Assembly (NCBI GenBank): GCA_018657065.1
Contig: JABHXU010000025.1
Span: 1-64,000, forward strand
DNA length: 64,000 nucleotides
Source: an archaeon
GTDB lineage: Archaea; Nanobdellota; Nanobdellia; Woesearchaeales; GW2011-AR15
Direction: 5' to 3'
Positions 8,666-22,596 of this stretch are shown here, in pieces (positions within the stretch are counted from its first letter, which is position 1; every line of letters starts with the position of its first letter). The notes under the pieces were generated by a model that was not told the origin of the DNA, did no database searches, and was given only the letters and a program-made list of their open reading frames with translations. Position numbers and translations under genes: made by a program.

Positions 8666-9871
8666 CTATTTTTTCTTCTGTTTTTTTCTAAACATATTTT
8701 TAAAAATTATAAAGTATATTACTACCAAAATAACTATAAATAATGCTGCTAAAAGTATAATTTCAATCCAAGATTTTTCTTGAGCAAAAATTCCTATAAC
8801 ATTGGCAGTAGCAACAGAATTTTTAATCCTTATTTTTTTATTTGAAACATCAATTTTATAACTTTTGATCGGATTTCTGTTTAAATAATATAATTTAACT
8901 GATAGATAATATTTGCCAGGCTCAATATTCTTTGTGTCCCAATATGTGTTAATAATATTATTCTCATACTTTTTAACATTAAAGTAATCAGATCTGAATG
9001 TATTTACAACATTATTGTTTGAATCAAAGACTTCGGTTACTAAATAAGCTCTTGAAATATCTTCTCCCCAATAATTTTTTACATTAATATCGAATTTTGC
9101 TATTGTTCCAAGTTTAAAAGTCTCAATATAAACTTTATCTATGTCTAGAATAGGTTCACCAATTTCAAAATTTTTCTCTTTTTCAATTTTTTCTTCATCA
9201 AAATACACATTTAAAATTGCCTTATATTTTCCAGGAAGAGTAGTAGCTATCCATTTGCTAACTATTTTTGATTTATCTTTTGATTTCAGTGAAATTGCAT
9301 TTGTTTTTAATGTTGAAATTTTGCTGTTTTCTATATTATATATTTCTATCTCTGCATTAAGGTTTTCAATGTCTTTAGATCCAACATTTTTTACACTGAT
9401 TGTAAAAGTTACTTCTTCATTTTGTTTATTTTTTGAAATAGTTGTTTTTGGAATCACATATTTTTTTGGATAAGGAACAATTACATTTATGGATTGCATA
9501 ATTCCTAAGTTTGCACTCAATATATTTTCAGCTGAACTTTTTGAAGAATCCATGACAAGAATTTTCAAATCATGGTTACCCGGATTTAAATTATTTGGTA
9601 AGTCTAAACTGTAAGAAATAGTTTTTTCATAAGTATTTTTTCCAATAAAAATTTCTTGTTCCTTAAAATTAACATAATTGCTTAATTCTCCTTTTGGAAT
9701 CAAAGATAATTTTAATTCTTTATTTTCATTATTTATTATCTTTAGATTAATAGTAGACTCTGAATATTTTTGGTGAAATATATCTACTTTTGAAGGAGAT
9801 ATACCTAGAGCACCAGCAAAACTAACTAAAACCAACCCCAATAACAAATAATTAATAATTTTTAATTTCAT
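8666..9871 (-). CDS. Membrane-anchored extracellular beta-sandwich protein (last gene of surface operon)
   Basis: 401 aa with a signal peptide (residues 1-22), three or four consecutive Ig/CARDB-like beta-sandwich segments with KNVGSKDIENLNAEI- and KNYWGEDISRAYL-type strands, a C-terminal transmembrane helix (about 368-390) and a basic cytoplasmic tail of Lys/Arg. This is the layout of a type I surface protein facing outwards. Its ATG overlaps the stop of the 3233-aa gene by four bases (ATGA), so translation is coupled. A scaffold or docking role for the giant protein is a reasonable guess from context only. Confidence 0.7.
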   Translation of the reverse strand: MKLKIINYLLLGLVLVSFAGALGISPSKVDIFHQKYSESTINLKIINNENKELKLSLIPKGELSNYVNFKEQEIFIGKNTYEKTISYSLDLPNNLNPGNHDLKILVMDSSKSSAENILSANLGIMQSINVIVPYPKKYVIPKTTISKNKQNEEVTFTISVKNVGSKDIENLNAEIEIYNIENSKISTLKTNAISLKSKDKSKIVSKWIATTLPGKYKAILNVYFDEEKIEKEKNFEIGEPILDIDKVYIETFKLGTIAKFDINVKNYWGEDISRAYLVTEVFDSNNNVVNTFRSDYFNVKKYENNIINTYWDTKNIEPGKYYLSVKLYYLNRNPIKSYKIDVSNKKIRIKNSVATANVIGIFAQEKSWIEIILLAALFIVILVVIYFIIFKNMFRKKQKKK

Positions 9872-12800
9872 GATTCCTCACCAATTATGTATAATGTAAC
9901 TTTTCTATTTCCTGGTGGTTCTTCAATAGGCACAGTTACATTTATGTCAATTTCTGCTTCATCATTTGAATCTGAATAATTAAGGAAACCTATTGCAGTT
10001 CTATTTTCTTCACTAATCAAAGTTAAGTTTGTCCACGTGTTTGTTGAGTTAGATAAATTAAACGAATTAGGTTCAGATGCAGTTTCATCTATTTTATACA
10101 TGAAATATTCAGTGTTTCCGTCAACAGTTGTAAATATGGATTCATTTATGCTAATCCAAGTAATATTTGCAAATACATTTCCATCATTTCTAACAACAAA
10201 TGGACCTCCAATCGTATCAGTGTCTAAACTTTGTCCTGTAGCCATTTCCCCAAAATTAATTGTATTATTAACTAAAGTTAATATTAAAGTTGGAGGGATA
10301 GTAAATGACCAAACATCTGACCAAGGTCCATAATCAATTCCATCATATGCTCTTACACTCCAATTATAAGTGCAATCTAATTCAAGTTCTGACGTTGGAG
10401 TATAATTCAGATTAGTTAAACTTGTTATGTGTCCGTAGTCTGGACAAGTGTCAGAAGTTAGATTTAAACTAAATTCAAGTGGATCTCCTTCTGCGTTTGT
10501 TATATTATCCCAAATAAGTGTTGTAGGATTTGTTATAAGTGAACTGTTGGTATCACTAGGGTCAAGTAATATGACTTTTTCTGGTGCAGCATTTCCAATA
10601 ATTACACTAGATGAATTTAAGTTCGATCCATCTTGGTAACCATCATTAACTGTAACAGAACAATGCCATTCGTCACCATAAGTTGTTTCATTGTAAATTA
10701 AAACTTGAGAGTTCCTTCCTTGTGATCCTGCTAAAAAGTTTTGATATATTTGATCTGAAGATAATATAATATCATATACTTTAAATTCATCTAAATATCC
10801 TGCTATGTTTCTATCTAATCCACCTCTATTTCCAATTAATAAATTGTACCCAGTATTAAATGTTCTACCATTTGTTTGTTCACCTTGACTATTACCATCA
10901 ATATAAAGGAAGTAACTATCTAAATTTGTTTCCCAAGTTACAGAAATATGGTGCCATGATCCATCAAACACACTTGGAACACCAGACCATTCTGAAGCAG
11001 CACTGTTATCAAGTTGGAAATTTATTACATCATCAGCATTATCTCTTGATAAATCAAAATAATAATTTCCTTGTGAGGAACCAAAGAAATGTGCAGTAGC
11101 TGTTTCTGATCCTGTTTCTCTATACCAAAATTCAATGGTTCCTATTGTTCCATTGATTGCAGACATAGGTACTTCTATTCTGTCAGTTGTTGAATCAAAC
11201 TCATAAGCACCACCAATTTTTCCACCTGTTCTATTAAATATTGCACCTAAGACCGTTCCATTGTTACCATATCCACTATAATCTGAGGCATTATTTGCTT
11301 CATTCTCATTTCCTTCAAAAGGCATATAAAGTACAGTTGTTGAAACATTATTTTTGTACCAATTAGTTATATTTCTAACTGAATGAGAGTCACTATCAGA
11401 AACACTAATCCAATTACATGTTAAATTTGATGCTTGATTAGGACTGCCAGGAGAGATTGTTGGAGTTGCATGAGTTGGAATATTATTATATTTTAATCTG
11501 TTTGAGCTTGTGTAGTTTATATCATTCATTACATTATCATAATTTTCATATCTGTATTTGTAACATTTACCTGCAGTTAAACTGTCGGTGTAAGGACTTG
11601 AAGGATTCAATCCATTCTCTTGCCACCAAGAACTATATGAACCACAAGTATTATCATCTTGTATAGTTGCAGATTGAGCAAGTAATCTACTGGCTGAGAT
11701 ATTTAATCCTGCACCAGAATCTGTTCCATCACTAAAAGTAATTGATACAGTATCATTATATGAATCTGGGTAAACAATTGATCCACCACTTGGTGCAGTA
11801 ATATCTCGAGTTATATCAAAAGTATCATCTGCACTATTTCCTGAGTTAGCATAACAAGTAACTGTTGCTGTTGTTGAATATGTATCGTCAGTAGCCCAAG
11901 TGTATTGATGTTTATATTCACTACTTGTATCAGCTACACCAGCACTTACAGTTGTAGGGAAAGTTACATTATTAATTCCAGTTAAAGAAGCGTTAGCACT
12001 AACATTAACTGAAAATTGTCCTGTTGTTTCTGTGTTATAAAATATTTCATTTCCACTAATATATTGGTATCCTAAATTTGTGTCTTCAAATAATACATCA
12101 ATACTACAATTAGGAACTTCTGTTGTAACTTTTGCAGTATTTGCACTTGTGAAATTAACACCATTTAACACATTGTCAAATATTTCATATCTATACTGAT
12201 AACAGTTCCCAGTTGCAACTGTTGTATCAGCATAGGATCCGTCTGATTCAGTAATAATTGTTCCCCAAGATCCATAACTTCCGCAAGATCCTGCATCAAG
12301 TGTTGCACTTCTTCTTAATATATTTCCAGTACTTGTATTTAGACCAGACTGAGAATCTGAACCAATTGAATAAGTAATAGGAACATTTTCACTTACATAG
12401 TATCCATCTGTGTATGAAATTGAGCCTGATGTTGGTGAAGTTGTATCTAATGTAATATTTAGAGTATCAATAGCACTATTTCCTATAACATCGTAACATG
12501 TTATTGTTGCATTTGTTGAATAAGTGTCATCAGTGGCCCACGTATATTGTTGAGTATATGCACTTGTTGTATCTGCTGAACCAGAGCTAACTGTTGTAGG
12601 GAATGTAACATTATGTACTCCACTTCCATCATCAGTAGAATCAACAGTTACTGTGAATTGTCCAGTTCCTAGAGTATTATAAAAAATTGTTGTGGAACTA
12701 ACATATTGATAACCTGAATTTGTGTCTTCTGAAAGACCTGAAATTGTACATGTAGGTGCAATAGTATCTTCGCAATCATTTGATTCACAAGTATAGCCTG

Positions 12801-15800
12801 CAGCACATTGTCCATCATTAGAACAATCAAACCAAGTTCCACTTTCACAATAATCATTATCTCCATCTCCATCAATGTCTCCAGAAACGTATCCTGTTGC
12901 ATAACAAGTATTACTATATACACAATCAGTGCTAGCGTCACAACAAGCATCAGTTATACTTGGTGTTATATCTATTGTTTCATTAAAGTCTGAATCAAAA
13001 TCATATTCACCAGCATCGTCTCCACAACAATTTGAAAAGTCTCCGCCAATATCCCATTCTTTTCCTGCGTCTCCACCTGTTTGATCAACAACACAACCAC
13101 AAACAGTAGAGTTATAATCTCCGTCACTAATAAATCCACAAGTGGCGTTAATATATCCAGATGTGCCATCACATGCACTTATTGTTTTTTCATCAGTTCC
13201 TACGTCAGCACCACATGCTTCTTCACATGTACCATCCTCACCTACTTCACTTGTACAATCATCACATACATTATCATCTGGATCATATCTTTTTGCTCCA
13301 GCACTAAAGTCTCCATCAGTAAAGGATTCATCACAAGTATCACCTTCTGAACAACTTGCTCTATTTGCGTATGAATAATATGTTGAACTTGCAAAGCAAA
13401 CAAAATTACTTGTTTCACAAGTACTTGAAGCGCAAATTCCATCTTGACTAATTCCATTTCCATCTAATGAAGAATCACAACTATCCCCAGAACTTGCGTC
13501 ACAAGTTGTAACAATATTTGCATCAGATAAATCTGCATTTGTACATCCATCTGTTCCGCAATTAATTCTAACAATACCTGAAGTTACACAACTGTTTTCA
13601 ATACATGCTCCGTTTCCAGAAGGACCTGTTTCTGGACTAGTGTCACAAATTTGAGCTTCATTTGTTGTAGTACATGAATTTGTTTCATCTCCATCTCCCC
13701 AACCAGGAGCACTACATCCAGTAGTTCCTGTACCACATTCTGCGTCAGAAGTTGCAGTTGCACTACTTACAACAATTAATGTTTCCTCACAACTTGAACC
13801 AACACAATAACCAGATCTTATGTAACTGCCTGTTCCATGATTGGTTGAACATTCTAAACCATCTGCACAATCATCTAAATATTTTGAATTTGAAGAATTA
13901 TATGCAGTAATTCCATCTTCATCACAACTATTAATGTCACTTATACACATTCCAGCAGGATCAAAACCATTACTACCAGGAGCACCATCAATACATGCCC
14001 ATCCATCTTGAGTTGAGCCGCTACAACTTGCTAACATTTTTGCATCAGTTAAATCTGTTGAATCACAAGTATCACCACAATTAACAGCAACTCTATCAGT
14101 ATCACATAAATTTTCAACACAAACCCCATCAAGAGTTGGAGGATTACCACTTGTAGGGTCACTTGCACAAACAACACCTTCATTAGTTGTATCACATTGG
14201 AAATCTTCGTCTCCATCAATAATACTAGGACTACTACATCCTGACAAAGCACCACATTCTGTTCCATCAGTGTCTGCAGCTAATTCAGTAGTTGCACAAC
14301 TAGTTCCCGCACAAAAACCATCTCTAGTATAATTTCCACCACTAGTTGCATCAGAATCGCATTCATAATCTGCTGCACAGGTTTGGTAGTAAATAGAACT
14401 ATTCTTAGCTACTTCACCGCTAGTATCACAATTATTAGCTGCACCTGAAGCACAAGTTCCTGTTTGTGAGTAATCTCCTCCAATTGTATCACAAGCATGA
14501 CCACTTGTAGTATCACATGTATTGTATGAGGAGTCTGAACTAAATGGAACAGCTTCACAAGATCCATCGCCACAGTCTACTCTTATTGCTCCTGATTCAT
14601 CACATCCATAAACTCCACCAGATCCACCAGGACTACTATCATAACAAGTTCCTGAACTACTATATGCAGTTCCACCAGTACTACAACCATACCCTGCTAA
14701 AGAACCATATGAAGCATCATAATCACAACTTGCTCTACATAGTGCATTTACACAAACTTCTGAACCAGAACAATCATCTCCAGTTGAACATACACAATCT
14801 GAATCAACTGCATCAATATCTCCATCACAATCATTATCATATCCATCAATGCAATTAGTTTCTGTTGTTTCAGCACTTGCAGCCCAGTTCCAAGCACCAG
14901 CATTAGTATAATAACAAGTAGCATTAGAAGTTTCATCTTCATTATCAATTAAATCATGGAATCCTAGACATTCATAAGTTCCACTACAAGTAACTGTTTG
15001 AATTTCACAACAGTTTGCACCAGTACATGCAGAAGTACAACTGGTAGCATTAATTTCTGCTTCTGTTAATATTGTATCTCCTAAACTTGTATCATCACTA
15101 CTTTCACAATCATAAGAATTATGATCCCATCCATCAGCATCTGCTGCGCATGCATCAGTTGCGTGATAATAACAAACATCACTCGAGTAAACACCGCAAG
15201 CCATAGCACCATCAGCAAAACTTCCTGAGTCGCAGCTAGAAGGAGATGCTTCTCCAGTTTCACAACCAGCATTGGCTCCAGATGCAGAACATCCTTCATT
15301 ATAATAACAAGTTGTTCCACTTACTGTTCCTGAATCATAACAAGTATCTGTTGAAGCAGTAAAACCTGTAGTGGCACAAGCAATATCATAATAACATTTG
15401 TCACCAGCATCATAATACTGGTAATCTTCAGCAAACCCAGTTATTGTTTGACCATCGTAATCTGTATCTGTACTATAATCCCATCCATCAAAGTCAACAG
15501 CACAAGCATCAGTTGCACTATATAAACACCTATCATTGCTTGCTGAATAATCATATTGACCACAGTTGGCATTACTTCCACTCATATCTCCTTCATCACA
15601 TGTTGGATGAGTTTCTGATGAAATTCCTGAACAACCTGTTCCACTACAAGAATCTGCTTCGTCAACAGATCCACCATTATCATAATAACAATCATTTCCT
15701 GATTCGTATCCGGGATCATAACATGCAACACTAGTTGCACTCCATCCTGTTGTTTCACAACTAAATGAATAATAACATTTGTCACCAGCATCATTATATT

Positions 15801-18800
15801 GGTAATCTGTTCCACTATTTGCACCTATTACAGTGACGCCATCATAATCAGTATCTAGTGTCCAATCCCATCCATCAAAGTCTGCGTCACATGGATCAGT
15901 TGTGTCATGATAACAAGCATCAGTTGTTGAACTATAATCCCAGTCACCACAATTTGCATCTGTATCTGAATAAGAGCCTTCATCACATGTTGGAGCACTA
16001 TCTGAAGAAATTCCTGTGCAACCTGTATTTGAACATGAATTAGATTCATCAACAGATCCTCCGTTATCATAATAACAAGATGCTCCACTTCTATACCCAG
16101 GATCATAGCAATTTGCAGTGCTATAATCCCATCCATCATCATCTGCTGCACATAAATCAGTGTTGTCATAATAACAAGCATTGTTAGCGTCATTGTAACA
16201 ATAACCTGCTCCATCAGCGAAATCTCCAAAATCACAAGAATAAGGTGCAGATGCTCCACTAGTACAACCTGCATTAGCTCCACTACCACTACACCCTTCA
16301 TCATAATAACATTTACTTGCACTAACAACACCTTCATCTAAACAAGTGTCTGAGGTTGAATCAATCCAAGAATTATCACATGTGATAGAATAATAGCAAA
16401 GATCTTCTGAATCAGCCATTTGATATCCAGATGAACAAGTTGTACAACTAGTTGAACCTACAGTAGTATCTGTGTTATCAGAACAAACCCCATCACACCA
16501 ATGACATGTTTCACTTGATACCCAATCTTCATTAATATCTCTTTCATCACATCCACTATTTGCACCACAACCACTTTCACAAACAACACCAGTTTTACTA
16601 GCTTCTGTTAAATCAAAACCTGCAGTAGCTTGTTGTCCTGTTGTTGGATCACATTCAACACAATCTCCTTCTGATTCATCCCATTTAAAAAATTCATCAG
16701 TCCAAGTATCAGAATCTTTATCAGTAGCACTTGCACAATCAGCGTAGGTAGTATAAGCCCATCCACCACTAGCAACATCTTGATCAGCACAAAAAGTAGG
16801 TATGTCTATACCAGTTACAGGATAACCTGTACAAAATTGTCCATCTTGATCACTAGCAGGATTGGATGTGTATGCAACACTACTTGAATCCCATATAGTC
16901 CCGTCATAAGTAGATTCATCATCAATTACAAAGTAAGAGTTTCCATCATAGCAAGTACCTAAAGTTCCTCCCGCAGCGCAAAATCCTCTTGCACCAGACC
17001 AACCAACTTCTTCACATAAGTCTCCATAATCTCCTATTCCACCATCATTACAAATTGCATCTGCGTCTGCAGCCCAATAATCCCATCCAGTGTCCCTTGT
17101 TGTATCAACTCCAGCATTGTCATCATCAACAACATAATCACAATCATCATCAGCAGTATCAGTAAGTCCATCACAATCATTATCATATCCATCACTGCAT
17201 GCAGAACCTGATTCAGCACTTTCAGCACTTGCTCCCCATTCCCAAGCAGCAGCGTTAGTATAATAACAAGTTGCGTTAGAAGTTTCATCTTCGTTATCAA
17301 TTAAATCATGGAATCCTAGACATTCATATCCCGCTCCACAAGTTATAGTTTGAATTTCACAACAATCTGCACCAGTACATGCAGAAGTACAACTAGTTGT
17401 ATTAAGTTCTGCTTCAGTTAAAAGAGAATCTCCTAAACTAGTATCGTCACTAGATTCACAATCATAAGAGTTGTGATCCCATCCATCAGCATCAGCTGCA
17501 CAAGCATCAGTTGCATGATAGTAACAAACATCACTTGAATAAACACCACAGGCCATAGCACCATCTGCAAAACTTCCTGAGTCACAACTTGCAGGAGCAG
17601 AGTCACCTGTTTCGCAACCAGCACCAGCACCAGCAGCAGTACATGCTTCAGTATAATAACAAGTTGTACCTACAACAGTGCCTGAATCATAACATGTATC
17701 TTCTGAAGCAGTAAATCCACTTGTTCCACAAGCAATATTATAATAACATTTGTCAGTAGCATCGTCATATTGGTAATCTTCAGCAAATCCAGTAACAGTA
17801 ACACTATCTAATGTTGTGTCAGTTGCATAATCCCAACCATCATCATCTGCTAAACAAGCGTCACTAGCACTATAATAACATCTATCATTACTTGCTGAAT
17901 AATCATATTGGCCGCAGTTAGCATTACTATCAGTCATATCACCCTCATCACAACTTGGATGAGTTTCACCAGTATTACATCCTGTATTCGCACCAGTGTC
18001 TGAACATCCTTCATCGTAATAACAGACGTTTCCACTAACAACACCTTCATCTTCACATGATTCTGAGGCTCCGTCACTAGCACTTCCATCTCCACAAGTA
18101 ATGTCTCCATAATAACACGTATCTGGTGCGTCTAATAAGATTCCATTTCCATATAATAAAGCAGATACAAGACTATTTGATGCACTTTCATCAGCACAAG
18201 TAATATCTGCATAATAACAATATCCCGAAGTGTCAACAGTTTTTGAAGCAGCAGTACATAGAGTATTTGAACTACTAAAAAATCCATTTCCGCAGTAAGT
18301 TCCACTTGCACTATTACTTCGTGCTGTTGAACTACAAGTAATTGTACTATAATAACAAGTTAAACTTGTGTCACCAGTTCTAGATCCAGATGTATAACCA
18401 TTACCATAAAGTGTTGTTGCACCTTGGTCAGCTCCATTAAAACAACTATCACAAGTTACAGATGTTGATGTTGTTAAAGATCCTGAATAAGTGGAATAAT
18501 CATCACTTGTGGAATCATCACCACAACAATAATAATTGCTTCCAGTAACAGATCCTTGTGAAGCAATCCAGCTATCACCTAAACAAGCACATACAGTTGA
18601 ACTTGTGTCTCCATCAGTATCATAAACACAAGCAGTTGAACAATATCCAGCACTAGCTGCGCAACCATTAGGTGAATAATCATCACATCCAGTATCGCTT
18701 CCTGCACCAATTTGACAATCACTATCATGGCTTCCACAAGCATTTGTTCCCCAACCACAATTAGTAGCAGAGTAACATACGAGATTATCTCCACCAGCTC

Positions 18801-19569
18801 CACCAGCTTCATTGTCACATAGATTTGAGGTACAATCTCCATCTACAGCACAAGTACATCCATTTGCTTTTGTTGATGCCCAAGAAGTCGTTTGACAATA
18901 TTTGCCCTCGTATGCAGTGCAACTTCCTGCAGTTACGTGTGTTCCTAGACCACCGTCATCAGTTTCAGCTCCACCACAATCAAATAATAATCCATTTGAA
19001 CATAGCATATTACTTACAACAGCACCATCTGCCATTGCCGCATTGTTGTAACAACAACTATTTCCTGATCCACTTCCTTCCCAATCTTCACCATTGTCGT
19101 CTCCGCAACACTTACTAGTTCCACCACTTCCTGTACTTATCCAAGTACCTCCGCCCGTACTACATTCACCACATGTTGCGTCATTTCCATAAGTATCGCA
19201 ATTACCTGAATAGGCACAACCAGCACCATAAGTACATGAATAAGCAGCATTAGCTTGTTGTGATAAGAAATTCAAAAACATAAAACTAATTAACACTAGG
19301 AAGCTGAAATATATTAAAGTGTTTTTAACTTTAGCTTTTCTTCCAAATATTAAAAATGAAGAATTTAGATAATCATCTAATTCTTTTAATGAAGGAAGTG
19401 ATAAAATAAATTCTTTAATTTTATTTACAAGATAAATTGAGAAAAACCAAAATATAATTGACATTAAATCTGAGTCTTTTATTTTGTGTTTTGAAACATC
19501 ATTAAAACTAGGTGGAAGAGCTATTAATTTTGTTTTTTTCATTTTCCTAGTTTTATTTTTTTCTTTCAT
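9868..19569 (-). CDS. Giant Cys-rich surface protein with Ig-like and LamG domains
   Basis: 3233 aa. A basic 35-residue N-terminus and a hydrophobic stretch (36-52) precede a second helix (83-103) ending in the signal-peptidase-like ANA-AYSC. Residues about 110-2250 are Cys/Asp/Ser/Gly-rich, with about 20 CYY tripeptides, repeated DGWDY units and DGYDNDCDG motifs of the MopE-like metal-binding type. Two Ig-like repeats follow at about 2276 and 2488 (both hold TFPTTVS and YTWATDDTYST), then a LamG/concanavalin-like domain (about 2740-2945, with GAYEF, IEFWYRE and WHHISVTW), a fibronectin-like domain and a C-terminal beta domain. There is no C-terminal membrane helix; it may be held by the N-terminal helices or secreted. 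Both ends overlap neighbours by 4 bases. The C-terminal third carries many N-glycosylation sequons. Confidence 0.85.
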   Translation of the reverse strand: MKEKNKTRKMKKTKLIALPPSFNDVSKHKIKDSDLMSIIFWFFSIYLVNKIKEFILSLPSLKELDDYLNSSFLIFGRKAKVKNTLIYFSFLVLISFMFLNFLSQQANAAYSCTYGAGCAYSGNCDTYGNDATCGECSTGGGTWISTGSGGTSKCCGDDNGEDWEGSGSGNSCCYNNAAMADGAVVSNMLCSNGLLFDCGGAETDDGGLGTHVTAGSCTAYEGKYCQTTSWASTKANGCTCAVDGDCTSNLCDNEAGGAGGDNLVCYSATNCGWGTNACGSHDSDCQIGAGSDTGCDDYSPNGCAASAGYCSTACVYDTDGDTSSTVCACLGDSWIASQGSVTGSNYYCCGDDSTSDDYSTYSGSLTTSTSVTCDSCFNGADQGATTLYGNGYTSGSRTGDTSLTCYYSTITCSSTARSNSASGTYCGNGFFSSSNTLCTAASKTVDTSGYCYYADITCADESASNSLVSALLYGNGILLDAPDTCYYGDITCGDGSASDGASESCEDEGVVSGNVCYYDEGCSDTGANTGCNTGETHPSCDEGDMTDSNANCGQYDYSASNDRCYYSASDACLADDDGWDYATDTTLDSVTVTGFAEDYQYDDATDKCYYNIACGTSGFTASEDTCYDSGTVVGTTCYYTEACTAAGAGAGCETGDSAPASCDSGSFADGAMACGVYSSDVCYYHATDACAADADGWDHNSYDCESSDDTSLGDSLLTEAELNTTSCTSACTGADCCEIQTITCGAGYECLGFHDLIDNEDETSNATCYYTNAAAWEWGASAESAESGSACSDGYDNDCDGLTDTADDDCDYVVDDDNAGVDTTRDTGWDYWAADADAICNDGGIGDYGDLCEEVGWSGARGFCAAGGTLGTCYDGNSYFVIDDESTYDGTIWDSSSVAYTSNPASDQDGQFCTGYPVTGIDIPTFCADQDVASGGWAYTTYADCASATDKDSDTWTDEFFKWDESEGDCVECDPTTGQQATAGFDLTEASKTGVVCESGCGANSGCDERDINEDWVSSETCHWCDGVCSDNTDTTVGSTSCTTCSSGYQMADSEDLCYYSITCDNSWIDSTSDTCLDEGVVSASKCYYDEGCSGSGANAGCTSGASAPYSCDFGDFADGAGYCYNDANNACYYDNTDLCAADDDGWDYSTANCYDPGYRSGASCYYDNGGSVDESNSCSNTGCTGISSDSAPTCDEGSYSDTDANCGDWDYSSTTDACYHDTTDPCDADFDGWDWTLDTDYDGVTVIGANSGTDYQYNDAGDKCYYSFSCETTGWSATSVACYDPGYESGNDCYYDNGGSVDEADSCSGTGCSGISSETHPTCDEGDMSGSNANCGQYDYSASNDRCLYSATDACAVDFDGWDYSTDTDYDGQTITGFAEDYQYYDAGDKCYYDIACATTGFTASTDTCYDSGTVSGTTCYYNEGCSASGANAGCETGEASPSSCDSGSFADGAMACGVYSSDVCYYHATDACAADADGWDHNSYDCESSDDTSLGDTILTEAEINATSCTSACTGANCCEIQTVTCSGTYECLGFHDLIDNEDETSNATCYYTNAGAWNWAASAETTETNCIDGYDNDCDGDIDAVDSDCVCSTGDDCSGSEVCVNALCRASCDYDASYGSLAGYGCSTGGTAYSSSGTCYDSSPGGSGGVYGCDESGAIRVDCGDGSCEAVPFSSDSSYNTCDTTSGHACDTIGGDYSQTGTCASGAANNCDTSGEVAKNSSIYYQTCAADYECDSDATSGGNYTRDGFCAGTSCATTELAADTDGTECGALSGCSSPSIIDGDEDFQCDTTNEGVVCASDPTSGNPPTLDGVCVENLCDTDRVAVNCGDTCDSTDLTDAKMLASCSGSTQDGWACIDGAPGSNGFDPAGMCISDINSCDEDGITAYNSSNSKYLDDCADGLECSTNHGTGSYIRSGYCVGSSCEETLIVVSSATATSDAECGTGTTGCSAPGWGDGDETNSCTTTNEAQICDTSPETGPSGNGACIENSCVTSGIVRINCGTDGCTNADLSDANIVTTCDASSGDSCDSSLDGNGISQDGICASSTCETSNFVCFASSTYYSYANRASCSEGDTCDESFTDGDFSAGAKRYDPDDNVCDDCTSEVGEDGTCEEACGADVGTDEKTISACDGTSGYINATCGFISDGDYNSTVCGCVVDQTGGDAGKEWDIGGDFSNCCGDDAGEYDFDSDFNETIDITPSITDACCDASTDCVYSNTCYATGYVSGDIDGDGDNDYCESGTWFDCSNDGQCAAGYTCESNDCEDTIAPTCTISGLSEDTNSGYQYVSSTTIFYNTLGTGQFTVTVDSTDDGSGVHNVTFPTTVSSGSADTTSAYTQQYTWATDDTYSTNATITCYDVIGNSAIDTLNITLDTTSPTSGSISYTDGYYVSENVPITYSIGSDSQSGLNTSTGNILRRSATLDAGSCGSYGSWGTIITESDGSYADTTVATGNCYQYRYEIFDNVLNGVNFTSANTAKVTTEVPNCSIDVLFEDTNLGYQYISGNEIFYNTETTGQFSVNVSANASLTGINNVTFPTTVSAGVADTSSEYKHQYTWATDDTYSTTATVTCYANSGNSADDTFDITRDITAPSGGSIVYPDSYNDTVSITFSDGTDSGAGLNISASRLLAQSATIQDDNTCGSYSSWWQENGLNPSSPYTDSLTAGKCYKYRYENYDNVMNDINYTSSNRLKYNNIPTHATPTISPGSPNQASNLTCNWISVSDSDSHSVRNITNWYKNNVSTTVLYMPFEGNENEANNASDYSGYGNNGTVLGAIFNRTGGKIGGAYEFDSTTDRIEVPMSAINGTIGTIEFWYRETGSETATAHFFGSSQGNYYFDLSRDNADDVINFQLDNSAASEWSGVPSVFDGSWHHISVTWETNLDSYFLYIDGNSQGEQTNGRTFNTGYNLLIGNRGGLDRNIAGYLDEFKVYDIILSSDQIYQNFLAGSQGRNSQVLIYNETTYGDEWHCSVTVNDGYQDGSNLNSSSVIIGNAAPEKVILLDPSDTNSSLITNPTTLIWDNITNAEGDPLEFSLNLTSDTCPDYGHITSLTNLNYTPTSELELDCTYNWSVRAYDGIDYGPWSDVWSFTIPPTLILTLVNNTINFGEMATGQSLDTDTIGGPFVVRNDGNVFANITWISINESIFTTVDGNTEYFMYKIDETASEPNSFNLSNSTNTWTNLTLISEENRTAIGFLNYSDSNDEAEIDINVTVPIEEPPGNRKVTLYIIGEES
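14820..15617 (-). repeat. Internal long repeat, copy B, in the giant surface gene
   Basis: About 800 bases (protein residues about 1318-1583) match copy A at 17168-17972 along their full length. Both run from a THPxCDEGDM segment through GVYSSDVCYYHATDAC and LGFHDLIDNEDETSNATC to DGYDNDCDG. Differences are scattered and mostly conservative. Confidence 0.8.
17168..17972 (-). repeat. Internal long repeat, copy A, in the giant surface gene
   Basis: Partner of copy B, offset by about 2.35 kb (protein residues about 533-800). Shorter, more diverged relatives of parts of the unit (CDEG...DACxADxDGWDY) lie between the copies around 15850-16340. Confidence 0.8.
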
Positions 19570-21581
19570 TTATAGTCAATTTTTAAATATGGTCTACAAT
19601 CTTTAGCACCACTTGGGTTTTCTCCTCCACAATTTTCTAAGTTATCTTCACCACTAAAACAAGTAATGTCACCATTACTACCTTTAGCATCATCACCAAT
19701 CCAATCTAAAAATATATTGCTGTAACCTTCATTGATATTGTAATTTACAATTGAAGTAACATCTACACAATTCCAATCATTAGGATTATTAATTATTCCT
19801 GTGGAAATAAGTAAAGATTCAGTAGAATGTATACGAATATCATTACAATAACTATAATCACTATTTCTAATAAAATTTGTTTGCTTATTATTTGATAAAT
19901 AATTATTGTATGCACAAATTTCAACACTTTTAATTGAAGAATCTTCTAAATAATAAATATCAAAATCAAATTGTCCAACAAAATTGAAATTTCTATTTAA
20001 TCTATTTTGGATAGCACAAAAATCTTTGGCATTACATTCAGAATATGTTACACAACTGTCACAATCATTGTTATAATATACTGCTTTTGTAGGAATAAAT
20101 TTTGGTGTTTTTGTTTTTTCTTCTGATAATGCGTATATTCCATCATCATAAACTACAAAATTTTTCTTACCACTTAATGTTGTGATTGCAGTTGATGTTC
20201 TTTGCCATCTTTTACAACTTTCATTTTCTTGTTGTGTGCATTTTAACACAACATCATCTTCATCAATATTAAGTTCAAATTGAACAGCTTGAGTATTGTT
20301 AATTAAGAATACAAAATTTGAAAGTCTATTGTCATTTGTTTCAATAGCTTTGATACTAGATTTAGATAAATTATTTGATAAAAGTCTAATAATATTATTT
20401 GAGTAGTTTAATACAACAGTATTATCAAATGAATCAATCAACTTAAAACCAACAAGTGAATTATTAAATCTTTGAAGATCAGTTAACATTATATTAATAG
20501 GAATAATTTGTTCAGTCACATTTGTTTCATTAACTAGTGTTTCATTGAACTTTAATGTCTCGTTAATAGATATATTTAAAATTGAATTATTTAGATCTGA
20601 AATATTTGTTAAATTACTAATTGTTTGATTTAAAATTGTAATGTTTGTTAGGTTTCCTAAAGACATATTTATTGAAATATTTGTATTATTAATTGTTGTA
20701 TTTAATTCAATAGAAACATTTGTTTCATTTGTTAGAACAGGGATTATAGGAATTTGAATTTCTTCACTATTTTCGCTAATATTGGTATATGTATAACTTA
20801 TACTTTTTATAAATAATTCAGTATCATCTAATAAGATTGTAAGTGTAATGTCATTTCCAGAGTTTACAATACAAGTATCTTTACAATAATTATTAAATGT
20901 TTTTACAAAACTATTTTCATTAGATGTTTCAGAATCAACTGAAGTATTAGTATTGGAATCATTTGATTCATTTTGTTCTGTGATGTTTGATTCAATCGTA
21001 GTATTTTCTTGAATTATTGTTTCATTGATTTCAATATTAATGTCAATTTCTTCTTCAATTATTTCTTCACCAAATGATTCATTTATTTCAGAGAGAATTT
21101 CAGATGAATTATCTTCAAAAGTAGTTGAATTAATTTGTTCAATTATTTCTTGAATGCTTTCATTATTATTTTCAAAAGTTTCATTAGATATTTTTTCTTC
21201 AATAAAGCTTTCATTATTTTCTAATGGAATATTTACAATTGTTTCATTATTATTTTCAGTAGAGGTATTGTCAATTACTAGTCCAGTCAGTAAATTTTGG
21301 TTTTTGTTTTCAAGATCTTGAATTTTGATTAAATTTAAATCATTGAATATTACTCTCCCAGTTCCATTTCCAGTAAATTCACCACTTATTCTTATTGAAG
21401 TTATTTCACCTTTAGCAGTGTATGTTAATCTACTTGTGGAATTAAAGAATTCTTGAATTTGGATAACTTCAACTTGTGATTCTCCAACAACAAAACCTGT
21501 GTGAGCTGGTTCAATCATCAAGAGTCCTATACTAAATGTTAAAATTATAGCATAAAAGAAAGTTGATTCAAGATTATTCAT
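19566..21581 (-). CDS. Asn/Thr-rich putative glycosylated surface protein with C-terminal DNRLRE-like domain
   Basis: 671 aa. An N-terminal hydrophobic segment (about 8-32) acts as signal or anchor. Residues about 95-370 are low-complexity and dominated by Asn, Glu, Ile, Ser and Thr, with more than thirty N-x-S/T sequons, so heavy N-glycosylation is likely. The last 140 residues have the pattern of the DNRLRE/CBM96-like jelly roll (CVDVTSIVNYN, GYSNIFLDW, then ITCFSGED and RPYLKIDY). Several Cys pairs (CDSCVTYSEC) lie just before it. Its start overlaps the HTH gene by 8 bases and its stop overlaps the giant gene by 4. Probably a partner or stalk component of the same surface structure. Confidence 0.7.
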   Translation of the reverse strand: MNNLESTFFYAIILTFSIGLLMIEPAHTGFVVGESQVEVIQIQEFFNSTSRLTYTAKGEITSIRISGEFTGNGTGRVIFNDLNLIKIQDLENKNQNLLTGLVIDNTSTENNNETIVNIPLENNESFIEEKISNETFENNNESIQEIIEQINSTTFEDNSSEILSEINESFGEEIIEEEIDINIEINETIIQENTTIESNITEQNESNDSNTNTSVDSETSNENSFVKTFNNYCKDTCIVNSGNDITLTILLDDTELFIKSISYTYTNISENSEEIQIPIIPVLTNETNVSIELNTTINNTNISINMSLGNLTNITILNQTISNLTNISDLNNSILNISINETLKFNETLVNETNVTEQIIPINIMLTDLQRFNNSLVGFKLIDSFDNTVVLNYSNNIIRLLSNNLSKSSIKAIETNDNRLSNFVFLINNTQAVQFELNIDEDDVVLKCTQQENESCKRWQRTSTAITTLSGKKNFVVYDDGIYALSEEKTKTPKFIPTKAVYYNNDCDSCVTYSECNAKDFCAIQNRLNRNFNFVGQFDFDIYYLEDSSIKSVEICAYNNYLSNNKQTNFIRNSDYSYCNDIRIHSTESLLISTGIINNPNDWNCVDVTSIVNYNINEGYSNIFLDWIGDDAKGSNGDITCFSGEDNLENCGGENPSGAKDCRPYLKIDYK

Positions 21582-22104
21582 CTTTTCTCACCCCTTTTTT
21601 AATAGCTCTATTGTATGTTGTCCAAATTGTTCTATCATCTCTATTTAAAATTACAGCAATCTCATGATAATTCATAGATTCTTTAAAAAATAAACATACA
21701 CTTTCAAAACAAGTATAATTTTTAGAAAAACTGCCAATAGGAATTTTATGTATATAATCAGAATTTAGTTTTGGAAAATACTTCTTCTTGGCTTTTTTAT
21801 AAGTAACTGCGCAATTATTTGGAGATCTATATGTTAATTTAGAAATTTCTTTAAAAGAAAGGTTTCTATTTTCATGTAAAAATTTTACAATGCTTTCAAA
21901 AATTCCTAACTCTTTATTGAAAATAGATCCAGGTAAATACTTTTCATATTCTTTTTTATCATTTAATGAAGCTTTGATTTCTTTATCTAAATGGTATTTT
22001 TCTTTTAATGAGGCAAGAAAAGAAGTTAAGAGTTTTTTATCTTGATTTGAGAGAACTGATTCTAGATCAATATCTACATTCAAGTCATCTCTTTTTACTT
22101 TCAT
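21574..22104 (-). CDS. Tandem helix-turn-helix DNA-binding protein (first gene of surface operon)
   Basis: 176 aa with an internal duplication. Unit 1 (about 57-107) is PGSIFNKELGIFESIVKFL...SFKEISKLTYRSPNNCAVTYKKAKKK and unit 2 (about 120-171) is PIGSFSKNYTCFESVCLFF...YHEIAVILNRDDRTIWTTYNRAIKK. Each ends in a helix-turn-helix-like pair of helices with a conserved T-Y-x-x-A-x-K-K recognition end, reminiscent of sigma-70 region 4-like HTHs; no known family is claimed. An acidic N-terminal region precedes them. Its coding end overlaps the surface gene, so it is made with the operon. Repeated AT-rich sites directly upstream are natural targets, which would make it an autoregulator; this is inference. 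Confidence 0.65.
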   Translation of the reverse strand: MKVKRDDLNVDIDLESVLSNQDKKLLTSFLASLKEKYHLDKEIKASLNDKKEYEKYLPGSIFNKELGIFESIVKFLHENRNLSFKEISKLTYRSPNNCAVTYKKAKKKYFPKLNSDYIHKIPIGSFSKNYTCFESVCLFFKESMNYHEIAVILNRDDRTIWTTYNRAIKKGVRKDE

Positions 22105-22113
22105 AATTACTAA

Positions 22114-22320
22114 TTATAAATTATTTAAGTAATAGTATTTATATTTTGTCATTATATTCAAATTAATTAAGTAATTATTAAATTAAATAAGTTAATTTTT
22201 TAGTATTTCTGCTATATAAATGTAAACTAAATGAGTTTTTTTTAAACTAAATGAGAAAAGAATATGTGTTTGATCATTAATTAAATAAGTATTTTTATAA
22301 ATTATTTAAGTAATTAAGTC
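22114..22320. promoter_or_regulatory. Array of repeated AT-rich operator-like sites
   Basis: An exact 20-mer (TTATAAATTATTTAAGTAAT) occurs at 22114-22133 and 22295-22314. Related TTAAGTAATT or AAATAAGT cores lie near 22165, 22185, 22283 and 22314. Between them the 13-mer TAAACTAAATGAG occurs at 22223-22235 and 22243-22255, exactly 20 bases apart, which is about two helical turns. The array sits immediately before the tandem-HTH gene. Spacing is irregular and there are no unique spacers, so it is not CRISPR. Confidence 0.55.
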
Positions 22321-22344
22321 TTTTGTTTTTTATATATTAGAATA

Positions 22345-22425
22345 AATGGAAAAGAATTAGAGGAAAGGTCTAGGAAAAGGCGGGCCTTTTCCTAGGAATA
22401 GACAGAGGGTGAGTCCTTTAATTGA
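22345..22425. ncRNA. GC-rich structured element (candidate leader RNA)
   Basis: In an otherwise very AT-rich intergenic region, CTAGGAAAAGG (22370-22380) and CCTTTTCCTAG (22385-22395) form a perfect 11-base-pair stem with a 4-base loop. AATT/AAAGG (22355-22368) can pair with CCTTTAATT (22415-22423) to close an outer stem. It would be transcribed on the minus strand as part of the surface-operon leader. A free-standing RNA on the plus strand cannot be excluded. It was not recognised as tRNA, SRP RNA or RNase P RNA. Confidence 0.45.
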
Positions 22426-22443
22426 GCGTGAATCTTTCATGGG

Positions 22444-22539
22444 TTACACCATCGTGGAGATGTTAGTATAAATGAATTGTTCAAATGTTGGAAAATCAAA
22501 TAATTGGTGCCAAAAATTTATTTTATCTTTTTTAGTCAT
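22444..22539 (-). CDS. 31-codon leader ORF upstream of the surface operon
   Basis: ATG at 22539 is preceded at 6 bases by GAGGTGG, one of the strongest Shine-Dalgarno sequences in the window, and runs 31 codons to TAA (MTKKDKINFWHQLFDF at the start). A TATA box lies about 50 bases upstream. The GC-rich hairpin begins about 20 bases after its stop, and 340 bases separate it from the HTH gene. A leader peptide, a small protein or the remnant of a longer broken gene are all possible; a second short frame with ATG follows 3 bases after the stop. No family is recognised. Confidence 0.4.
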   Translation of the reverse strand: MTKKDKINFWHQLFDFPTFEQFIYTNISTMV

Positions 22540-22585
22540 ATTTAACCACCTCACAATTTGTTATATGAAAATTAATGATCAAAAT

Positions 22586-22596
22586 CATATATAAAC
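22586..22596 (-). promoter_or_regulatory. TATA box for the surface-operon leader
   Basis: GTTTATATATG on the minus strand; a start about 26 bases downstream (about 22565) leaves a 25-base leader before the Shine-Dalgarno-bearing mini-ORF. Confidence 0.45.

Follow-up and report, generated by a model that had tools for sequence, protein, structure and literature searches.

Local autoregulation and membrane-tethered regulators are both known kinds of control, and several described systems approach the locus analysed here. In Pyrococcus furiosus, LrpA abuts the TATA box on its downstream side and blocks RNA polymerase without displacing TBP and TFB, and both LrpA and Ss-LrpB bind cooperatively to several sites (PMC2995911). 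Regulators of the ToxR/CadC type combine a DNA-binding domain, a transmembrane (TM) segment and an ectodomain in one chain (PMC6320335, PMC5430869). The ECF sigma/anti-sigma pairs and SigI-RsgI of Clostridium thermocellum couple the gene of a sigma-4-like HTH protein to that of a single-TM protein (PMC12203970, PMC4711584), which in SigI-RsgI bears extracellular lectin-type domains. Very large surface proteins are described in the nanohaloarchaea, which are DPANN archaea, and LamG is mentioned there (PMC10266531). In the literature searched, outside which lie most subscription journals and preprints, no description was found of the HTH family, operator and HTH-giant fusion reported below, nor of an HTH partner or operator for the giant surface proteins of DPANN archaea. 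The protein family, the recognition code it uses and its association with giant surface proteins appear to be new.

The window analysed is a stretch of 64,000 nucleotides (GCA_018657065.1, contig JABHXU010000025.1, positions 1-64,000) from an archaeon of the Woesearchaeales (GW2011-AR15). Four minus-strand genes, overlapping by 8, 4 and 4 nt, were found where the first-pass annotation had placed them. The first cistron encodes a tandem-HTH regulator of 176 aa (P0004; 21574..22104), and its stop overlaps by 8 nt (21574..21581) the start of the gene for the 671 aa surface protein P0003 (19566..21581), an overlap class that is conserved in the homologues. P0003 carries an N-terminal TM and a 'TGF' module common to other HTH partners and a C-terminal domain which recurs in the partners at two further loci (L039 and L045), while its abundant N-x-S/T sequons allow glycosylation to be predicted from the sequence only; the DNRLRE-like end once ascribed to it found no DNRLRE match in Pfam. 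In the family to which the window belongs, P0003-like loci lie mostly beside an HTH gene, and the single-contig genome of a same-genus relative (G002) contains neither an HTH gene nor a P0003-like gene. The third gene (9868..19569) encodes the giant surface protein P0002 of 3233 aa, in which a stretch of ~80 aa precedes an N-terminal membrane segment. Its proposed Cys-richness and LamG domain were both recovered (214 Cys; Laminin_G_3 at residues 2792-2941, 10747..11196; Pfam E-value: 6e-20), its end is Ig-like, and its C-terminal region (residues 2986-3233; 9871..10614) is common to the C-termini of other HTH partners. The 401 aa product of the last gene (P0001; 8666..9871), a GISPxK Ig-like protein, is a membrane protein as proposed, its N-terminus bearing a signal/TM and its C-terminus a TM together with a KKQKKK tail. 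In several relatives, homologues of P0001 are found downstream of an HTH gene at a distance of one to five genes. All four products may together build one surface structure. No Rfam RNA or tRNA was found in the window.

The tandem-HTH character of P0004 was borne out by Pfam, in which two stretches match the region 4 HTH of the sigma-70 family (Sigma70_r4_2, PF08281; Bitscore: 28.3; E-value: 1.3e-6), and by an AlphaFold2 model with two helical units (pLDDT: 90.9). Covariation, described below, marks the recognition helices of HTH1 (residues 93-107, RSPNNCAVTYKKAKK; 21784..21828, minus strand), a variant of the W99A class, and of HTH2 (residues 155-169, RDDRTIWTTYNRAIK; 21598..21642, minus strand), which follows the consensus. 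The whole protein gave zero matches at E<=0.001 when compared against the PDB with Foldseek. The similarity is local, single HTH units matching region 4 of SigR/SigE (TMt 0.58-0.60; E-values non-significant) and also the HTH of RcsB. The core-binding domain of sigma-70 region 2 found no Pfam match in P0004, the NCBIfam matches being parts of region 4 only, and no Lrp-family model occurs among the Pfam and NCBIfam matches; the generic winged-HTH model HTH_24 matches weakly, below the cut-off. Unlike LrpA and Ss-LrpB, P0004 is a sigma-4/LuxR-like tandem HTH protein and not of the Lrp-type fold, and members of its family are encoded alongside a giant surface protein or fused to one. At five loci (L067, L080, L118, L147 and L157) the HTH regulators are seemingly duplicated, with about four HTH units in 327-358 aa, and these are free or, in L157, fused.

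Homologues of P0004 are present in 42 of 60 close relatives, with up to nine matches per genome, and a profile search recovered them in 163/371 genomes of the phylum sample. In a scan of 84,980 species, queried with a profile from a four-sequence alignment, matches were confined to Woesearchaeota, Pacearchaeota, related Nanoarchaeota MAGs and a few vaguely labelled MAGs, two of which bear a Euryarchaeota label. Homologue regions were drawn in match-list order before their neighbours were known, genes were called by a simple longest-ORF method on MAG contigs, and the controls were 665 further genes at these loci, each encoding 100-400 aa. A start overlap with the next co-directional gene was observed for 109 of the 118 standalone HTH genes (exactly 4 nt in 42/118), as compared to 107/665 controls (16%). 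The next gene lies within 30 nt and encodes an N-terminal hydrophobic segment in 107/118 cases, against 106/665 controls (16%). It is at least 600 aa long for 63 of these 107 partners versus 12 among the 665 controls, the partner lengths being minimum values since many contigs end inside the gene. At held-out loci from the named scan, the start overlap occurs in 36/47 and an N-terminal-TM partner in 32/47. The proposal that the HTH homologues would be found beside large surface genes is thus clearly upheld across the 118 homologues and 47 held-out loci, and the homologues are not scattered without surface genes. That this neighbourhood arose by chance or hitch-hiking, with no functional link between the genes, has next to no probability: no support for this reading was found, and it is contradicted by the overlap statistics as well as by the fusion, operator and covariation described below.

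The partner described by the first-pass annotation as giant and Cys-rich is so in the window, but this does not hold generally, since many partners lack Cys-richness and some are small. They belong to several mutually unrelated types, which include giants of up to 4782 aa (where the contig ends inside the gene), Ig-like proteins anchored in the membrane, and a ~240 aa family in which an 'RWKAYVGNVTG'-like stretch is conserved. The ~240 aa secreted family, which also shows a C-terminal 'YYFYVEL'-like stretch, is the immediate HTH partner at eight loci (L053, L055, L058, L064, L066, L075, L081 and L083), and no Pfam match was found for the two members examined. Another partner type, of ~190-240 aa with an internal TM, occurs at L124, L125, L127 and L131, where a ~740 aa gene with 18-20 Cys lies upstream.

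The repeated sites reported before the operon comprise an exact 20-nt repeat which forms part of an operator family upstream of the homologues. The consensus of this family, TACTTACATAATAAGTA, is a pseudo-palindrome of 17 bp. The motif CTTACATA occurs upstream of 42/110 HTH genes versus one of 473 control genes, and at the chosen threshold the PWM matched 84/110 HTH upstream regions, with 235 sites against 2.6 in shuffles. Matches were furthermore found in 33/39 held-out HTH upstreams and in 13/18 upstreams of fused genes, which had been left out of training; of the 24 control genes with a PWM match, nearly all are the divergent neighbour on the same intergenic region. A match is absent from 26/110 HTH upstreams, several of which show other repeated variants by eye. 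Repeated motifs of this kind, seen at L088, L115 and L142, are likely to be further variants of the code. Across 151 inter-site spacings a period of 10.6 bp was observed (R 0.71; Rayleigh p ~1e-33), consecutive sites clustering at 21, 31, 42, 53, 63 and 74 bp, so that they lie on one face of the helix; held-out spacings are phased more weakly (R 0.39; p 5e-4). The family-wide TATA peak lies at -40 to -30, and the commonest operator position is on its downstream side, starting at TATA +12 to +14. Upstream of the TATA box, operators also occur at distances of 20, 30 and 41 bp, and 27 of the 40 regions having both a TATA box and a site have operators on both sides.

The window array lies on the minus strand and consists of site 1 (TACTTAAATAATTTATA; 22296..22312; -208 from the ATG), site 2 (TACTTATTTAATTAATG; 22275..22291; -187), the operator-like sites 3 (AACTTATTTAATTTAAT; 22177..22193; -89) and 4 (TACTTAATTAATTTGAA; 22157..22173; -69), and site 5 (TACTTAAATAATTTATA again; 22115..22131; -27), at successive intervals of 21, 98, 20 and 42 bp. 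Sites 3 and 4 are weaker matches, and sites 2 and 3 are separated by a 98-bp gap that does not keep the phase. A TATA-box-like element (TATAAATA) is found at 22136..22143 on the same strand (-39 from the ATG), and site 5 starts 12 bp past its start. Across the 1.49-Mb genome the window variant of the operator, TACTTAWWTAATTWA, matches exactly three times, each time upstream of P0004. A second HTH gene, also in this genome, comes with a separate operator that has two matches at <=1 mismatch, both upstream of that gene. In the complete genome G093 and the fused-gene genome G333, the consensus operator was found at <=2 mismatches only at the HTH or fused gene, and in the same-genus relative G001 a related site occurs four times before the HTH gene. 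With each operator confined to its own operon, the regulatory loops look local and insulated. The operator lies in the promoter of P0004 itself with little elsewhere, as expected of an autoregulator, and a role for P0004 as a global regulator was rejected given this confinement. Paralogous surface operons in multi-copy genomes might instead regulate one another, as in variant switching, and both the presence of up to nine matches per genome and the differing codes of the homologues could be taken in favour of such cross-regulation; the insulation of the loops in this genome, where neither operator occurs outside its own operon, nonetheless renders it very improbable.

The relation between protein and operator can be read residue by residue. 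When residue-base covariation was ranked over 105 HTH/operator pairs, the recognition helices accounted for 25 of the 30 strongest pairs (7.4 expected), although the homologues are related and both the Mantel and the raw covariation values are inflated by ancestry. All 25 of these pairs join HTH1 to the right half-site and HTH2 to the left half-site in mirrored register, with residues 96/158 paired with positions 14,15/1,2, residues 97/159 with 13/3 and residues 99/161 with 14/2. After APC correction 21 pairs remain, of which 20 are consistent with the mirrored assignment and one is not, and this correction and the mirrored two-unit pattern would argue against ancestry as the whole cause. Where HTH2 has N instead of T, TACTTA gives way to TACATA; where HTH1 has this substitution, the right half shows the mirrored TGTA; and the LAVTY variant (W99A class) accompanies AATATATA. 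P0004 itself combines a consensus HTH2 (RDDRTIWTTY) with TACTTA left half-sites and a deviant HTH1 (RSPNNCAVTY, W99A class) with right half-sites AATTTATA in place of AATAAGTA, so that its operator variant fits the altered HTH1. The operators of single-HTH homologues are near-perfect palindromes, for example TACTTACAATGTAAGTA (6.2/7 matched positions versus 4.3/7; p 3e-13). These homologues must dimerise to cover the operator, from which we infer that a single tandem protein occupies each 17-bp site. The reading of a pseudo-palindrome by one tandem monomer, as predicted here, is a further difference from LrpA and Ss-LrpB.

The earlier suggestion that the HTH protein regulates this operon gains support, as a prediction, from the genome-wide specificity of the operator and from the covariation. 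In our assessment P0004 is very probably a dedicated local autoregulator acting through phased operators, most likely repressing itself and so limiting a costly surface protein. The P0004 monomer, with its two sigma-4/LuxR-like HTH units, would sit on the 17-bp operator with HTH2 on the left and HTH1 on the right, and would occupy several helically phased copies in the promoter of its own operon in vivo, being produced together with the overlapping surface-protein gene. Since one operator usually abuts the TATA box on the downstream side, P0004 most likely represses its own promoter by blocking the recruitment of RNA polymerase, and the purpose of such negative feedback may be to hold the output of a very costly surface protein. 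The predicted arrangement resembles that of LrpA and Ss-LrpB, with local autoregulation, an operator abutting the TATA box downstream and several sites (PMC2995911). The latter regulator, of the Lrp type, switches between positive and negative autoregulation (PMC2995911), and from the sites 20, 30 and 41 bp before the TATA box, phased HTH proteins could recruit TBP/TFB and activate their own operon, giving a bistable on/off surface display. Such a positive local loop is rather unlikely, as the commonest site lies directly downstream of the TATA box and is expected to block RNA polymerase.

In a sister order, identified as Pacearchaeota by the title of locus L231, which corresponds to genome G269, the giant surface protein itself ends in the tandem HTH, which makes up its final ~120 residues. 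Twenty-five such ORFs were found, with the HTH at the very C-terminus in all of them and preceded in 24/25 by a hydrophobic stretch and then a K/R cluster, a combination seen in 0/44 split giants with a readable C-terminus. The hydrophobic stretch is short in most and reaches the 19-residue TM threshold in six (L157, L159, L182, L183, L184 and L189); we hypothesize that this C-terminal segment inserts in the membrane. As the HTH is upstream in the split form and downstream in the fused form, the latter is not a simple read-through of the same arrangement. At L100 (genome G119) a free tandem-HTH gene is directly followed by an overlapping giant gene with a fused HTH of its own, while an apparent 3125 aa HTH fusion at L089 was discarded as an artefact of a run of N. 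The 25 fused ORFs of relatives unite HTH, segment and ectodomain in one chain, the TM of the C-terminal segment being predicted, and in this resemble ToxR/CadC (PMC6320335, PMC5430869), with the DNA-binding domain predicted to be cytosolic. They are unlike ToxR/CadC in their C-terminal HTH, a surface ectodomain of 1000-3500 aa and an apparent target which is their own gene. No such one-chain protein was found in the window, where the form is split. In the sister lineage the HTH would thus be a cytosolic C-terminal tail, and with the operator preceding the fused gene, the surface protein may read its own gene from the membrane and hold it in check. A tentative extension is that the Pacearchaeota-type giant acts as its own transcription factor, its cytosolic tail binding the operator of its own gene such that surface abundance or host contact is read at the promoter, with the split Woesearchaeota form as a two-gene version; we consider this possible, at somewhat less than an even chance. 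An extracellular, DNA-binding adhesin role for the HTH was rejected, as the free HTH genes lack signal sequences and the fused HTHs follow the hydrophobic and K/R segment in genes preceded by the operator.

The fused proteins also bear on whether the regulator and its partner form a pair that signals across the membrane, as an archaeal counterpart of ECF sigma/anti-sigma or SigI-RsgI, in which a cytosolic N-terminal domain of the surface protein holds and releases the HTH upon sensing of a ligand or host cell, the fused Pacearchaeota-type form being the one-component version. As in SigI-RsgI, a regulator gene with sigma-4-like HTHs overlaps that of a single-TM surface protein, and LamG is found both in the window operon and in fused partners. 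A ~90 aa, predicted cytosolic N-terminal domain is common to 18 fused proteins and 21/118 split partners, and the position of the fused HTH after the hydrophobic and K/R segment in 24/25 would suit such a pair. Against this, the immediate partner in the window, P0003, starts almost at its TM, with few preceding residues and no cytosolic anti-sigma domain, and the TM of most partners lies within the first 30 residues, which leaves nothing there to bind the HTH; the ~240 aa partners likewise lack a cytosolic domain. P0004 has no sigma-2 domain, the promoter is archaeal, and the predicted binding site of P0004 is a palindrome around the TATA box, all in contrast to SigI-RsgI. The signalling pair is accordingly an improbable account of the system as a whole, although a signalling or contact-sensing layer may possibly be added to the autoregulation where the partner has a cytosolic domain.

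Under the autoregulatory reading, archaea that are mostly uncultured and probably host-dependent would have a regulatory system that can be read, acting on surface proteins with a possible role in host contact. The protein-to-DNA code, which links residues 96/158, 97/159 and 99/161 to mirrored operator bases, is derivable from sequence alone, predicts operators from protein sequence and is directly testable, while the HTH-giant fusion would physically connect a surface protein with the promoter of its own gene. Furthermore, the operator or the HTH could be used as bait for surface-protein operons in poorly annotated DPANN genomes.

Additional elements can be observed near the operator array in the window. 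A repeated mobile element was considered for this region and is not supported, the 381-bp upstream segment being single copy in the genome. Upstream of the array, the intergenic region includes a 31-codon minus-strand ORF (22444-22539) with a Shine-Dalgarno-like GAGGTG (MTKKDKINFWHQLFDFPTFEQFIYTNISTMV). Between this ORF and the operators lies a strong hairpin, CTAGGAAAAGGCCCGCCTTTTCCTAG (22370-22395; fold z -3.2), which is terminator- or RNA-like, and both the small ORF and the hairpin are enclosed by a 21-nt inverted repeat of 90% identity (22262-22282 and 22570-22590).
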